The position numbers were made by a program, and so were the translations under genes. The notes below the pieces were generated by a model that ran no database searches, was not told where the DNA came from, and saw nothing but the letters and a program-made list of their open reading frames with translations. A stretch of 64,000 nucleotides of DNA. It comes from Okeania sp. KiyG1 (lineage in GTDB: Bacteria > Cyanobacteriota > Cyanobacteriia > Cyanobacteriales > Microcoleaceae). Of the stretch, positions 50,792-62,596 are shown one piece after another (the first letter of the stretch is position 1; every line of letters begins with the position of its first letter). Where the stretch lies: assembly GCF_014132355.1 (NCBI RefSeq), contig NZ_BLZO01000053.1:62001-126000 (forward strand). The letters are read 5' to 3'.

Positions 50792-53284
50792 ATGAATATA
50801 ATTCCCACCCAATGTCAAGACTTACAAAATCAGGTAGAAAGTTTACTTCAATTATTGCATCAAGAATCTACTCTTAGGCAACAAGATACAACAGCAGTTC
50901 GTGCTTCTTTAAATAAAGTAATTTCTCCCAAATTTGAAATAGTATTTGCGGGAGCTTTTAGTGCGGGTAAGTCGATGTTAATTAATGCTTTATTAGGAAG
51001 AGAATTACTTTATAGTGCAGAAGGTCACGCCACAGGAACAGAATGTTATATTGAATATGCTGAACCTGAAAAAGAACGAGTAGTTTTAACATTTTTAAGC
51101 GGGGCAGAAATTCAAGAACAAGTAGCAATTTTACGAAAGGAATTAGGTTTAGACCCCAGTGCTAAAATTCAACAACCAGAAGTCATCGAAATTATCCGGG
51201 AACAATGCGACGCAATTATTAAAAATGAAGGTGGCGAAAATAAATCGGAGCGGGCTAAACAAGCAAAAGCATTGAAATTATTAGTAGATGGTTTTGAGGT
51301 TAATAAAGAATGTATTCATTCTGCCGAAAATGCTATTTATTCTATGGAGCAGTTTAATTTTTCTAACTTGAAAGAAGCAGCAAGTTATGCCCGACGGGGG
51401 ATGAATAGTGCTGTGTTGAAGCGGGTGGAATATTATTGTCATCATCCTCTTTTAGAAGATGGAAATGTGATTATTGATACCCCAGGAATTGATGCGCCTG
51501 TAGAAAAAGATGCTCAAGTTACTTATGACAAAATAGAAAACCCAGAAACTTCTGCAGTTGTTTGTGTTTTAAAAGCTGCTGCTGCGGGAGATATGACAAC
51601 TGAAGAAACAGAATTACTGGAAAAAATGCGAGAAAATCCTGGTATTAGAGACCGGGTTTTTTATGTGTTTAATCGTATTGATGAAACTTGGTACAATTCT
51701 CAACTCAGACAACGATTAGAAAGTTTGATTATTTCTGATTTTCGGGAGACGGAAAGGATTTATAAAACCAGTGGGTTGTTAGGTTTTTATGGCAGCTCAA
51801 TTAAAGAAGCAAGTGCAGGCGATCGCTTTGGTTTAGATAGTATATTTGCTAATAGTGTTAAAGGTTTAGATGAGGAGGAGGAAACACCACAGTTTGTCTA
51901 TGCTTTTAACAATTATTGTGGGACTTCTCGCAAACTTCCGAGTAATTTTCGGATAAGTATTAATGGTTTTGAGTCACCTAATGAAAATTATGTCCGGATT
52001 TTAGGTGAGTGGGGAAAACCGTTAATCGAACAATTAATCAAAGATAGTGGAATAGAAGAATTTAGGGATGGAATTACTCGGTATCTGAAGGAGGAAAAAC
52101 GTCCACAATTATTTGCCAATTTGGCAGATGATTTACAAAATATCTGTATTCAATTACAGAAAAATTATTTAGCTACTCAACAAAATTTGGCAAGTCAACC
52201 CCAGGAAATAGAGGCAATGAAAATCCAGGAATTATCATTGTTGAATTCTCAACTTCAGGAAGTGGGGGAGGAGTTTAGCGAGCATATTTCTGAGGAAGTA
52301 AATTTCCTAGTCACAAATAAATGTGATGGTTTTGAAGCAGATTTTAATCAACTCCAATCTCGGATGATTCGTCGTTTAGATGAATTATTAGATACTTTTT
52401 CTGTAGAAGCTGCTTATAGTCGGGCAACTATTAATCATCCACGGAATGCAACGGCACCTTTATTAGCAGTTTTGGTCGAAGCACTTTATTATTTAGCGAA
52501 TCAATTGGAGGATATTTTAGTTGATTCTACCCAGTCAGTGGTAAGTGGATTTTTTCAACGTTTAATTGACCGAGTTCGTAAGTCAGAATATTATCGGCAA
52601 CTTTATCGTTTGTTGGGGAATGATGGAGGTATTGAACAACATTTAAAGGAAGTAGAAAAAGCAGTTACCACAGCATTAATAAGTGCGGCGCGGATAGAAT
52701 GTGACAGGTTTGTGCGAGAAAGTCCTCGTTTTTATGATGAAGGAACTTTTTCTATCTATCAGTTTAGACAGACTTTATTACAGACTTCTCAAAGTTTTGA
52801 CTGTAGCAGTATGGTAGAGGCGGAACCAGCAATTAGACAATTGTTGAAGTTGGATTTTGAGCCGAAAGTTTCTAAGACAATTCGGCAGACTTTTCGGCAA
52901 ACTGTGAATCAAACTTTGAAGACTCATTTATTACCTATGGCGGAAAAACAAGGGGAAGATATTATGCAGCAATATAATCAAGCGCGGGAATATTTAGAGA
53001 AAAGTTTGGAGACCGAAGCTGGGGATAAAATTCAACGAAATTTGCGTTTACAAACTGAGGTTAAGGAAAAGATTGGGGTTTATAATCAAGCGGTTTCTAA
53101 TATTAATAGTTGTTTACAGACGATGTTATTGAATGAGCGGCAGTTGCCAATTATTTCTGGATTTAATTTTGGGAAAGGTGAGGATGATTTGGATGCGGTA
53201 AGTGATGAAAATGAGAAATTATTGGAGAGTGCAGAAATATCCCCGCTTGATGATTTAAGACAGCAGATGAATTTGAATAGTTAG
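50792..53284 (+). CDS. dynamin-like GTPase
   Basis: An 830-residue dynamin-superfamily protein. G1 GAFSAGKS is at 54-61, G2 is probably Thr in HATGTE near 80, G3 DTPG at 229-232 and G4 NRID at 294-297. The insert between G1 and G3 (about 100-200) is long and charged. Helical stalk regions follow. A hydrophobic stretch near 553-577 (APLLAVLVEALYYLANQL) is a candidate membrane-contacting tip, as in bacterial dynamin-like proteins. The last residues, SAEISPLDDLRQQMNLNS, carry a motif repeated at the ends of the small proteins that follow. A membrane-remodelling or stress role is inference from the family. Confidence 0.88.
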   Translation: MNIIPTQCQDLQNQVESLLQLLHQESTLRQQDTTAVRASLNKVISPKFEIVFAGAFSAGKSMLINALLGRELLYSAEGHATGTECYIEYAEPEKERVVLTFLSGAEIQEQVAILRKELGLDPSAKIQQPEVIEIIREQCDAIIKNEGGENKSERAKQAKALKLLVDGFEVNKECIHSAENAIYSMEQFNFSNLKEAASYARRGMNSAVLKRVEYYCHHPLLEDGNVIIDTPGIDAPVEKDAQVTYDKIENPETSAVVCVLKAAAAGDMTTEETELLEKMRENPGIRDRVFYVFNRIDETWYNSQLRQRLESLIISDFRETERIYKTSGLLGFYGSSIKEASAGDRFGLDSIFANSVKGLDEEEETPQFVYAFNNYCGTSRKLPSNFRISINGFESPNENYVRILGEWGKPLIEQLIKDSGIEEFRDGITRYLKEEKRPQLFANLADDLQNICIQLQKNYLATQQNLASQPQEIEAMKIQELSLLNSQLQEVGEEFSEHISEEVNFLVTNKCDGFEADFNQLQSRMIRRLDELLDTFSVEAAYSRATINHPRNATAPLLAVLVEALYYLANQLEDILVDSTQSVVSGFFQRLIDRVRKSEYYRQLYRLLGNDGGIEQHLKEVEKAVTTALISAARIECDRFVRESPRFYDEGTFSIYQFRQTLLQTSQSFDCSSMVEAEPAIRQLLKLDFEPKVSKTIRQTFRQTVNQTLKTHLLPMAEKQGEDIMQQYNQAREYLEKSLETEAGDKIQRNLRLQTEVKEKIGVYNQAVSNINSCLQTMLLNERQLPIISGFNFGKGEDDLDAVSDENEKLLESAEISPLDDLRQQMNLNS

Positions 53285-53406
53285 GGGTAGTTTTATTTCA
53301 GAGAAATGTAGGGTGTGTTGTTGAAGCATCCTACAGTTATAGTGATTCGCGCAAGGCAAAAGTCAAAAGTTAAAAATTAAAAGTAATAGCAGTTTGATAA
53401 ATTTTA

Positions 53407-53544
53407 TCCTGATGAACCTGAAGAAACTGAATCAAATAAGTCAAAAAATGAAATAGAAGTTTCTGACAATCATAATTCAGAAAATATGTAAATTGAAGTA
53501 TCCCCACTTGATGACTTACCTCCGCAGATGAAGTTGAATAGTTA
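53407..53544 (+). pseudogene. remnant of a KGK-like protein tail
   Basis: Reads FYPDEPEETESN, then a stop, then SPLDDLPPQMKLNS. The final part and the following 60 bp (GTTAGGGATAGTCTTGCTCAG) match the 3' end and downstream region of the GTPase at 53240-53330. This shows a roughly 90-bp duplication that spread the tail. Confidence 0.7.
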
Positions 53545-53637
53545 GGGATAGTCTTGCTCAGAAAAATGTAGGGTGTCTTGCTGAAATACCCTGCATATCC
53601 CCACTTAATAATTTATTGGAAATAGAGGAATTAAAAA

Positions 53638-54087
53638 ATGGCAGAAAATTCAGATAATCAAGATTTTATTGTATTAAACTGGGACGAAGTTGTTGAAATT
53701 GATGTAAATGTCGGTACATATTTAGCTCTGAATTCAAACAACTTTAAATATTTACATATGATAATTTCCAACTGACAATCAGCAATTATTAGTAGAGTAG
53801 ATATTCGGGATAAGAAAATAAAAAATCAACTATTTTATGATGATTATGATGGTGTAGAGTGTGAAGTTTTGAGATTAGGCGCTCAAAGTTGGCAAAAAGG
53901 AAAAATCAAAGTAGAACTTACTGTCCAATTTTACCCTGATGAATCTGAAAAAGAGATGGAAGAAACTGAATTAAGTCAGTCAGAAAATGAAGTAGAAATT
54001 TCTGACAAAAATAATTCAGAAAATATCGAACCTGAAATATCACCTCTAGACGACTTACGACAAAAATTTAATCAGGAAAATCAGTAG
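53638..54087 (+). pseudogene. KGK-like small protein with an in-frame TGA
   Basis: ATG at 53638 opens MAENSDNQDFIVLNWDEVVE and reads in frame to 54087, except for a TGA at 53773-53775. The second half holds the KGK-type core CEVLRLGAQSWQKGKIKVEL with FYPDE, an acidic Glu/Ser linker and ISPLDDLRQKFNQENQ. The KGK domain is a small cyanobacterial family of unknown function. A shorter product could start inside, from 53869. Confidence 0.7.
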
Positions 54088-54199
54088 AAATTTTCCCAGA
54101 AATCTAGATTTATGTAGGGTAGTTTATCCCTCTACATCTTTATTTATTCAGGCAAAAATATAGAAGGAGTAAACTCACATGGAACATAAATATTAACCA

Positions 54200-54553
54200 T
54201 TGGAAAATTTAGAAGTTATAGAACTCTTACTTCGTCCCATAGCAGCAGAATTAGGTTTAAGTTCCTATTTTCAAATTTTAATTCTTCAAGTAACCCAATT
54301 TGCAGCTATCATCCAACATAATTTAAGAGTTTCTGATGAAATAAAAGAACAAGTATTTGAAGAAGGTGTAGATTGTCAAATTCTCATATATGGTGCTAAA
54401 GAGTGGCATTCAGGGAAAATCAAGGTAAAAGTTACTGTCGAATTTTGCCCCGACCCACCAGAAGAAGATACTGAAAAAACTCAATCAAGTCAGTCAGAAA
54501 ATGAAACAGAAATATCTAACAAAAATCATTCCCCAGTCATAAATTTCTTGTAA
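54200..54553 (+). CDS. KGK-like small protein, tail lost
   Basis: Frame of 117 residues from a TTG at 54200; an ATG at 54179 in another position meets a stop within five codons, so the N-terminus may be damaged. Core CQILIYGAKEWHSGKIKVKV and FCPDP, acidic linker, then NHSPVINFL instead of SPLDDLR. The change coincides with the start of the local duplication (54530-54775 against 54772-55130). Probably a decaying paralogue. Confidence 0.55.
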   Translation: MENLEVIELLLRPIAAELGLSSYFQILILQVTQFAAIIQHNLRVSDEIKEQVFEEGVDCQILIYGAKEWHSGKIKVKVTVEFCPDPPEEDTEKTQSSQSENETEISNKNHSPVINFL

Positions 54554-54816
54554 GGTACCCAGATAGTAAATAATAATGAATCAAAAAATTTTCCTAGCTC
54601 AAGAAGATGTTATCTCTATATTTATATCCGTATAATAAGTAGTAAATCTGACCGACAAAAACTACATTTATATCCCTCAGGTAATTAGCCTATCAATTTC
54701 TAATTCTGGAGAGGAAAAGAAATAATACAACCAAAATATTCCGTCAAAAATTCAGACAGTTTCATAACTCACCCCAGTCATAAATTTTTTGTAAGATACC
54801 CAGATAGTAAATAATA

Positions 54817-54984
54817 ATGAATCAAAAAACTTTCCTATCTCAAGAAGATGTTATCTCTGTTTACGACCATGAAATTTTGGTTTTTGACCAGAATTTTACT
54901 CACCATAATATTTCAGAATATCTCGAACCAAAAACATCTCCCCTAGATGACTTACTGCCAAAATTTAGTCAAAATAATAAGTAG
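54817..54984 (+). pseudogene. short KGK-family relic, tail kept
   Basis: A 55-codon frame MNQKTFLSQEDVISVYDHEI leading to HNISEYLEPKTSPLDDLLPK and FSQNNK. It keeps the N-terminal start (SQEDVIS, like NDEVISV in the intact member) and the C-terminal motif but lacks the KGK core, which was deleted. A shorter relic of the same start lies at 54576-54635 (MNQKIFLAQEDVIS). Confidence 0.65.
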
Positions 54985-55219
54985 TAAATCTAACCGACAA
55001 AAACTACATTTATATCCGTTAGGTAATTAGCCTATCAATTTCTAATTCTGGAGAGGACAAGAAATAATACAACCAAAATATTCCGTCAAAAATTCAGACA
55101 GTCTCCAACTAACCCCACTCAGAAATTTCTTGTAAACTTACAAAATGAAAATAATGATTCTGAAATATTCCCAGTATATGATCGATATCGTACATTTAAC
55201 CAAGAATAGAAATTAAAAA

Positions 55220-55648
55220 ATGGAAATTAATATGGAAGAAAATTTTTACCCTAAAGATTGTAATGATAATGATATGATTTATTTTGTAAATGCTACATAC
55301 AAAATAGGTAGTTTTAAACGCGCATTAAATAAATCATTTAGCAATAATCTAGGATCTTAATTAAGTGGTAAACTTAGCCAAAACGGTATTAGAATACCCA
55401 ATACAATTTTCAGACCACCCGGTATGAATGAACCCTATAGTAGATGGTTTGAAAATGGTATGGATTGTGAAATTCTTAATCTGGGTTCCGAACAATGGAA
55501 AAAAGCAGAAGTCAGAGTTAAATTAACTGTCGAATTTTATGTGGATCTAGAAGAAAAAGAGGAAGTTTCTAACAACGAAAATTCAGAATATATCGAACCA
55601 GAATCACCCCTTGATGATTTACGGAAAAAATTTAATGAGGAAAATTAA
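55220..55648 (+). pseudogene. KGK-like small protein with an in-frame TAA
   Basis: ATG at 55220 reads MEINMEENFYPKDCNDND, meets TAA at 55358-55360, and continues in the same frame through CEILNLGSEQWKKAEVRVKL, an acidic linker and SPLDDLRKKFNEEN. The Lys-Gly-Lys core has become Lys-Ala-Glu. A short product from 55424 remains possible. Confidence 0.65.
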
Positions 55649-55733
55649 GTAGGTGATAACTAAAGTAAACTTATACTCCAAAATTACTTCTACCTGATAT
55701 CATATCTATTATTTAGTTAAAGGGAAAAATTAC

Positions 55734-56084
55734 ATGGGAAACAAATTTGAACACCTGAGAAATGATGAAGTTATCTCAGTAGAAGAAGAGCTTCATAAAA
55801 ATCAACCCCACATAATCAAAAGCACAACCTTCCAAGTCAGTGAGTTAGTGCAAAAATTGACTGAAAGAATAAGTAGCAAGGAAAATTTAATTTTTAATGG
55901 TTTTGATTGTAAAGTATTAAGATTAGGTTCAGGTGGTTGGGTAAAAGGTAAAATAAAACTTGCTTTAGAATTTTACCCTGATGAACAAGAAGTTTCTCAA
56001 ACATCTGAAAAAAAGTTATCTAAAAACAGTGAATTAGAATCTCCACTTGATGATTTACGCCAAAAATTTAATGAGGAAAATTAG
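55734..56084 (+). CDS. KGK-like small protein (intact member)
   Basis: The only apparently intact member, 116 residues. N-terminal part MGNKFEHLRNDEVISVEEEL, a helical middle, core CKVLRLGSGGWVKGKIKLAL with EFYPDE, a short linker and SPLDDLRQKFNEEN. Same strand as the GTPase, about 2.4 kb downstream. Function is unknown; the shared C-terminal motif suggests that it and the GTPase are recognised by a common partner or bind in one complex. Confidence 0.75.
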   Translation: MGNKFEHLRNDEVISVEEELHKNQPHIIKSTTFQVSELVQKLTERISSKENLIFNGFDCKVLRLGSGGWVKGKIKLALEFYPDEQEVSQTSEKKLSKNSELESPLDDLRQKFNEEN

Positions 56085-57567: not shown

Positions 57568-57813
57568 ATGAACAAAACTCCCCGAATAAAAATCCCTTTA
57601 GCAGTCAGAAAATATGTATTCGAGCGCGACAATTACCATTGTAAAAGTTGTGGTAAAACTACTAGAGAAGCACAACTTACTATAGACCATATTATCCCCC
57701 TAGCTAGTGGTGGTAGTAACGATATTAGTAATCTACAAACCCTCTGCAGTAAATGTAATCAAAAAAAGAAACATCACTTCGACCCACGATTCCAACGCAA
57801 CTTCAGTAACTAA
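57568..57813 (+). CDS. HNH endonuclease domain protein
   Basis: An 81-residue protein that is essentially one HNH/zinc-finger nuclease domain: CKSCG, then LTIDHIIPLASGGSNDISNL and TLCSKCNQKK. His of the DHI motif and the two Cys pairs are present. Stand-alone HNH proteins of this size are common in cyanobacteria and their role is seldom known. No partner gene suggests a homing or restriction function. Confidence 0.85.
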   Translation: MNKTPRIKIPLAVRKYVFERDNYHCKSCGKTTREAQLTIDHIIPLASGGSNDISNLQTLCSKCNQKKKHHFDPRFQRNFSN

Positions 57814-61921: not shown

Positions 61922-62596
61922 ATGCCCTTAACAATTCTCGTAGTTGATGATGATTTGGGAACTCGTTTATGTGTTGGTGATTACCTAGAAATTTCTGGTT
62001 ATTTGGTAATCAAAGCTGAAAATGGTCAACAAGCTTTAGATTTATTAGAGAAATCTCGGCCACACCTGATGATTACTGATATTGCCATGCCAGAAATGAA
62101 TGGTTATGAGCTGGTACGACAAGTTAGATCGCGTCCCATTTTTCGTTTATTGCCTGTGATTTTTTTAACTGCCCATACAAGTACAGAAGAACGAGTAAAA
62201 GGTTATAATTTGGGGTGTGATATTTACTTACCAAAGCCTTTTGAATTACCAGAGTTAGGAGCAGTAGTTCGGTCTTTGTTGGATCGGTCTGCTCTTATTG
62301 CTCAAGTTTCACCTACATTTAATCAATATTCTAAGATAGAAAAGCCATCTGAATTACATTATTCAGAGGCAGTATCTCAGTCAGTTATAGCCAATGCTCA
62401 GATTAGTTTGACTGAGCGAGAACAACAAGTTTTGAGTCTTTTAGTTAATGGTCTTTCTAATGTTCAGATTGGCGATCGCCTACATTTAAGCCATAGAACT
62501 ATTGAAAAATATGTCAGTAGTTTATTGAGAAAAACTAATACTAATAATCGAGCTGAATTAGTTCGTTTTACAATGGAAAATTACTTTACTAATTAA
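61922..62596 (+). CDS. NarL/FixJ-type response regulator
   Basis: A 224-residue two-component transcription factor. The REC domain (1-120) has Asp9-Asp11, phospho-acceptor Asp53 in MITDIAMPEMNGY and Lys105. A linker of about 40 residues leads to a LuxR-type helix-turn-helix (160-222) with LTEREQQVLSLLVNGLSN and LSHRTIEKYVSSLLRK. No histidine kinase is adjacent, so its sensor is elsewhere and its targets unknown. The frame is intact with a HIP1 site inside (62472). Confidence 0.93.
   Translation: MPLTILVVDDDLGTRLCVGDYLEISGYLVIKAENGQQALDLLEKSRPHLMITDIAMPEMNGYELVRQVRSRPIFRLLPVIFLTAHTSTEERVKGYNLGCDIYLPKPFELPELGAVVRSLLDRSALIAQVSPTFNQYSKIEKPSELHYSEAVSQSVIANAQISLTEREQQVLSLLVNGLSNVQIGDRLHLSHRTIEKYVSSLLRKTNTNNRAELVRFTMENYFTN

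Follow-up and report, generated by a model that had tools for sequence, protein, structure and literature searches.

The window considered here, a stretch of 64,000 nucleotides from the cyanobacterium Okeania sp. KiyG1 (contig NZ_BLZO01000053.1, forward-strand positions 62,001 to 126,000), carries the gene of a dynamin-like GTPase (50792..53284, + strand) that is followed on the same strand by six copies or relics of KGK genes, and the GTPase and most members of this array share a terminal peptide of the type SPLDD[LI]R. We propose, with a probability of roughly 0.55, that this tail is the docking helix of the KGK partners of a SynDLP-type GTPase and that it has been captured here by the GTPase itself. 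That GTPases of this clade are paired with KGK genes has been published, and the KGK protein, whose function is called enigmatic, is typically encoded downstream of the GTPase (excerpts of PubMed Central (PMC) article PMC5827413); SynDLP is a member of this KGK clade of cyanobacterial dynamin-like proteins (excerpts of PMC10104851). What appears to be new is the tail: neither the tail nor SPLDDLR or SPLDDIR was found among the matches listed from the open PMC literature, and we saw no paper on it.

An earlier note, drawn from the letters of the window alone, had taken the motif for one peptide carried by two unrelated proteins. Judged by sequence comparison, the tail is instead the conserved C-terminus of KGK proteins, which the GTPase shares here as homologous DNA. 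Matches of tailed KGK proteins extend to positions 117-119 of the 119 positions of the Pfam KGK model (PF08872) and thus cover the motif. Forty KGK proteins, picked with a tail-containing profile, were aligned: the first D of L-D-D is the same in all of them, and there is next to no variation at L128 and R132 or, within the W-x-x-G-K core, at W89, G92 and K93. With a tail-free profile, a KGK domain reaching its end was found in 208 of the 5752 open reading frames (ORFs) of the loci collected, and 206 of these have a C-terminal region of 5-90 residues. LD[DE][LIVF]R stands near the end of 167 of the 206, a set that includes loci for which the motif itself had served as bait; only a looser form is present in 19 and none in 20, and after shuffling of the C-terminal regions 0.1 proteins on average, and never more than 2, had the motif. 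When only loci fetched by the GTPase were counted, 132 of 177 KGK ORFs were tailed. Of the other ORFs with at least 150 codons, 706 in number, seven had the motif in their last 25 residues, namely five GTPases and two remote KGKs. The consensus over 165 distinct tails reads S-P-L-D-[DE]-[LI]-R-[QR]-x-[ILMF], its L-D-[DE]-x-R part being imposed by the search form. The linker before the motif has a median length of 22 residues and is 31% acidic, and a median of seven residues (range 0 to 15) follow the motif. In the AlphaFold 2 (AF2) model of one KGK protein, the folded part is followed by residues 111-123 with a predicted local distance difference test (pLDDT) score below 50 and then by a low-confidence helix at 127-138. 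A search for solved relatives of KGK gave no convincing match by sequence (best E 0.41) or by fold. Three long KGK ORFs of 252-275 codons (L106, L112 and L241) seemingly consist of two KGK units each.

From genome to genome, the tail accompanies the GTPase. KGK ORFs and pieces flanking the GTPase lie on its strand in 102 of 102 cases, found in 60 of 81 loci, and a second set gave 87 of 87 in 35 of 60 loci (E 0.01). In 242 genomes of the class, with the GTPase counted as present at E 1e-100, 65 have both genes, 16 only the GTPase, 50 only KGK and 111 neither (Fisher 2.9e-13); since the genomes are related, this and the other Fisher value below are not probabilities of independent events. The corresponding numbers for 97 of 99 relatives, the two with GTPase fragments being excluded, are 78, 3, 9 and 7. 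Tailed KGKs were present in 79 of the 91 GTPase loci with a neighbouring KGK versus 3 of the 63 KGK loci in genomes where the GTPase had no full match (Fisher 1.2e-26), a value that overstates independence and to that extent tells against our proposal, since the GTPase-less loci stem mostly from families f47 and f54 and represent a distinct subfamily and since the profile was built mostly from tailed KGKs. These 63 loci, confirmed by the domain profile, come from 66 loci covering 67 of the 71 matches in 58 genomes; the four unfetched matches include the only one of genome G112, and G032, which has a KGK as well as a scrap of the GTPase at the end of a contig, was left out. By eye, 11 of the 12 misses among the 91 loci end in near variants such as SPLEDLRQ and SLDGLRKQ, and the three tailed exceptions without a full GTPase (G035, G057 and G013) belong to genera that include GTPase-bearing members. 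The remaining KGKs of GTPase-less genomes have very different ends, many of them DDDY- or MWS-like. One KGK copy ending in MWS (L007) is also present in the genome of the window, and a tail-less KGK subfamily from genomes without this GTPase (L347-L412) matches mostly the C-terminal half of the domain.

Families f47 and f54 include both kinds of genomes, and among the loci read, KGKs with the tail or something close to it were found there only beside the GTPase. Four hand-picked pairs of the same genus or family differ in both GTPase and KGK (G093/G065, G097/G070, G091/G062 and G071/G098; the GTPase matches of G097 and G071 being no more than weak), and one counter-pair, G250 beside G273, keeps the GTPase without KGK. 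In Synechocystis, slr0868-slr0871, which include the SynDLP gene, rise together about 6-16 fold in a lexA mutant, as read from a table of PMC4759255.

The GTPase of the window, an ORF of 830 amino acids (50792-53284) with the C-terminal end SPLDDLRQQMNLNS, is by sequence an orthologue of SynDLP (Slr0869) and is probably a membrane-remodelling protein. Its Dynamin_N domain scores 66.7 bits against a Pfam cut-off of 27, orthologues are present in relatives, and its residues 3-795 match residues 3-797 of the SynDLP structure 7zw6 with E 0, i.e., with near end-to-end homology. The translation contains GAFSAGKSMLINALL, a P-loop followed by INALL, with two residues between GKS and INALL; the clade signature given in excerpts of PMC5827413 is a P-loop extended by an L/INALL/I motif, in a notation readable as one residue. 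For the KGK clade, a cysteine pair forming a disulfide in the bundle signalling element is also reported (excerpts of PMC10104851). Named records with 88-98% identity to the window GTPase are from Okeania and Trichodesmium. Comparison with anti-phage dynamins of the LeoA/LeoBC kind gave no more than weak matches, confined to the N-terminus or the GTPase domain (best E 1.8e-10), and speaks little for a role of that sort.

Most relatives' matches to this GTPase stop near residue 790. The C-terminal extension beyond it (residues 791-830; 53162..53281, + strand) consists of an acidic linker and a KGK tail, is unalignable in most orthologues, and has pLDDT values below 50 at 791-817 and 819-830, which is nearly its whole length. 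The captured tail SPLDDLRQQMNLNS itself, delimited by translation, pattern search and codon analysis, occupies 53240..53281 (+ strand). The DNA bears on its origin: a segment of 127 bp (53209..53335, + strand) that comprises the 3' end of the GTPase gene, its stop codon and a 3' hairpin aligns with relic DNA at 53474-53595 with a Smith-Waterman score of 61, as compared to at most 15 in 200 shuffles, and the homology also appears as repeats D6 and D12. The relic in question, KGK relic 1, is 83% like KGK-1 over 53420-53519; from 53495 on, its likeness is to the 3' end of the GTPase gene, at 84%. By eye, similar hairpin-forming stretches follow the GTPase (53307-53335) and relic 1 (53567-53595), both within the shared DNA. 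On this footing, capture of the tail by the GTPase through gene fusion is well supported, and the tail on the GTPase is a derived feature; the direction would be from KGK to GTPase because the tail is family-wide in KGK proteins and rare in GTPases, and the exact recombination can be proposed only along the same lines.

The array from which the tail would have come lies on the + strand. Relic 1 (53393..53545), delimited by the DNA repeats and ending in SPLDDLPPQMKLNS, has a KGK-like linker and a GTPase-type tail, an in-frame stop and no domain. KGK-1 (53638..54087; Pfam and profile match), which ends in SPLDDLRQKFNQENQ, has one in-frame stop at 53773-53775 and has kept its tail. KGK-2 (54200..54553) begins with TTG and has a KGK domain match but no tail. 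In the remnant at 54817..54984, recognized from its translation and ending in SPLDDLLPKFSQNNK, an N-terminus that is KGK-like by eye is joined straight to the tail, with the domain core missing; a Pfam scan of this remnant gave no match. KGK-3 (55220..55648), the genome's best KGK match (E 3.3e-32), ends in SPLDDLRKKFNEEN, with one in-frame stop at 55358-55360 and its tail kept. Lastly, KGK-4 (55734..56084) is intact, has 116 amino acids and carries the tail SPLDDLRQKFNEEN. The PF08872 scores, in a scan whose input comprised the array without relic 1, are 64.9 bits for KGK-4, 64.1 for KGK-2, 73.3 for a part of KGK-3 and 43.8 for a part of KGK-1 (cut-off 25.6). SPLDDL is kept in five of the six copies or relics, in three of these as SPLDDLR; the earlier note had counted five or more such members with a single intact one, and both counts hold, KGK-4 alone being intact with a tail. 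Within the array, 54531-55105 is a young tandem duplication, in which 87 nt are 95% and 132 nt are 96% identical. A small ORF at 57568-57813 resembles an HNH endonuclease by eye.

The sharing of an SPLDDLR-type terminal motif by the GTPase and the downstream array, as the earlier note had it, was borne out: pattern CCNYTNGAYGAYYTNMG occurs four times in the genome of 10.98 Mb, each time within the GTPase-KGK locus, and this count, the DNA alignment and the shuffles rule out a chance likeness of the two kinds of ends. A wider pattern gave 139 matches in 99 genomes, compared to 39 for a reversed control. Sorted by hand, with one match (L081) assigned to KGK by eye, 28 of the 139 fall within neither KGK nor GTPase genes. 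Ten of these 28 were read in frame, one being internal and nine lying in open frames of 15-133 codons that look non-coding or unrelated; seven have no matching frame and 11 were unread. Ten of the 28 start with the stop codon TGA and therefore cannot be the motif. We rejected a general cyanobacterial C-terminal signal, since the 28 outside matches do not exceed the 39 of the reversed control and since the ten read in frame are not clear protein C-termini; among the wider-pattern matches read in these 99 genomes, the motif is not frequent at the ends of unrelated proteins. A docking tag within one complex, which the earlier note had suggested, survives as the best reading of a tail that tracks the GTPase, and the notion of a general signal does not.

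Orthologous GTPases mostly lack the tail (170 of 181 distinct C-termini, from 224 loci in two collections with identical tails merged). The 11 that carry the motif comprise seven from Okeania/Trichodesmium and four from family f37; in shuffled C-termini it turned up 0.40 times on average and never more than 4 times. For strict LDDLR the count is 10, as compared to an average of 0.002 and a maximum of 1 after shuffling. In the set made up of the window and 80 fetched GTPase loci, seven have an SPLDD-type end (the window, L101-L105 and L109). The GTPase was found in six of eight f37 genomes searched. Five of these (four of genus g61 and one of g151) have four distinct tails that all end exactly in ILDDLR, with differing linkers and synonymous changes; the sixth, L265, ends early in frame and shows no tail. 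DNA likeness between the f37 GTPase tails and the local KGK tails was sought and none was found, so that a local DNA origin of the f37 tail was discarded. Because the f37 tails have no DNA likeness to the adjoining KGK tails, the two gains look independent at the level of sequence; an old fusion is a possible origin of the f37 tail. In the Trichodesmium group, locus L107 (G026) contains repeated GTPase pieces (residues 83-209 beside 754-829/830, twice) near KGK genes.

In the proposed arrangement, the domain of a KGK partner would be followed by a flexible, acidic tether some 22 residues long, and this by a short helix that is capped by S-P and presents L-x-x-[LI]-x-x-x-[ILMF] as its hydrophobic face. 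The tailed KGK subfamily would then represent small partner subunits of the SynDLP-type GTPase, whose oligomer would offer a binding site for the helix, and a GTPase that has a tail of its own would do in cis, or from one protomer to another, what KGK proteins do for it in trans. A docking function can be suggested because the tail tracks the GTPase, sits on a tether, and is found on the GTPase in two lineages.

Several observations weigh against this proposal. The domain profile detected a KGK in the fetched flank of 91 of 141 GTPase loci and none in 50. No KGK match is present in 16 of 81 GTPase genomes, among them 10 of the 17 GTPase-bearing genomes of genus g77 (e.g., L239, L246 and L251). 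In three loci of the Trichodesmium group (L106, L107 and L110), the GTPase has a stop followed by a decayed counterpart of the tail; in Okeania SIO1I7 (L108) it is cut at residue 658 and the tail is lost with the 3' end; and in G002 (L109) the tail survives on a GTPase fragment only (residues 704-830). The ratio of nonsynonymous to synonymous substitutions (dN/dS) in six Okeania/Trichodesmium sequences is about 0.10 for the body, 0.27 for the linker and 0.39 for the last 12 codons, on few sites. Docking of the tail was looked for in the AF2 model of the GTPase itself and none was seen, the tail being disordered.

Some of these data fit a passive accident, in which the GTPase lost its own stop and ran into, or was overwritten by, the decaying 3' end of a KGK gene, leaving an idle tail. 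The shared DNA covers stop and hairpin, relic 1 resembles a recombination junction, all but one of the six adjacent KGK copies are damaged or have no tail, and the decayed tails of the Trichodesmium group, the relaxed dN/dS of the tail and the tailed fragment in G002 point the same way. We nevertheless regard such an accident as rather unlikely, since five full-length relatives besides the window carry the tail, with only synonymous change and no amino-acid change in S-P-L-D-D-L across the six sequences, and since the f37 GTPases end in the same motif with changed linkers and synonymous changes. Alternatively, the tail could bind the KGK domain, so that KGKs chain head to tail and a tailed GTPase recruits KGKs. 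Arrays of KGK genes, long KGK ORFs of 250-275 codons and the occurrence of tail and domain mostly within one protein would suit such chains, but the tail helix in the KGK model is of low confidence and the confidence values indicate no docking, Okeania hirsuta (G003) has a tailed GTPase and no KGK match, and tail-less KGK domains exist without the GTPase; we consider chaining improbable. Still less credible is a role of the tail in controlling the amounts of both proteins, as a signal for degradation or processing: the tail is short, terminal and flexibly tethered, but such a signal would be expected on other proteins, with none among the pattern matches read; moreover, the tail tracks the GTPase, and the motif can be followed by 0 to 15 residues and so has no fixed end. 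An amphipathic membrane anchor, with its hydrophobic spacing of L, [LI] and [ILMF] and in view of the action of SynDLP on membranes (excerpts of PMC10104851), can be practically dismissed, since the tail is not clearly basic, has two acidic residues in its core, and is too short in the f37 GTPases, which stop right after LDDLR.

Under the docking-helix proposal, the tail provides a defined stretch of residues as a candidate contact between the GTPase and KGK, and this in a bacterial dynamin whose oligomer has been solved and that shows eukaryote-like features. A bolder and more tentative extension, to which we assign somewhat less than even chances, is that LDD[LI]R might be a portable docking code of the cyanobacterial dynamin machine with the tailed KGKs as its dedicated adaptors; at least two lineages would then have independently hard-wired the helix onto the dynamin, converting an interaction in trans into one in cis or between protomers and making KGK dispensable, as Okeania hirsuta may illustrate.

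Compared with known systems, the locus resembles SynDLP and the KGK clade in that the GTPase is orthologous over residues 3-795 and KGK genes lie directly downstream (excerpts of PMC5827413 and PMC10104851). It would differ from SynDLP in the last ~29 residues of the GTPase, which by eye align with the linker and tail of KGK; of the 820 residues of SynDLP, the alignment covers those up to 797. As in the KGK family PF08872, KGK-4 and three other copies or parts exceed the cut-off and the tail falls inside the model; in contrast to that family at large, the array is mostly broken, and the Pfam model also matches the tail-less subfamily in GTPase-less genomes. Short terminal docking peptides on flexible tethers constitute a general kind of system. 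By analogy, the KGK protein, with its folded domain, acidic disordered tether and short helix, would work in a similar manner.

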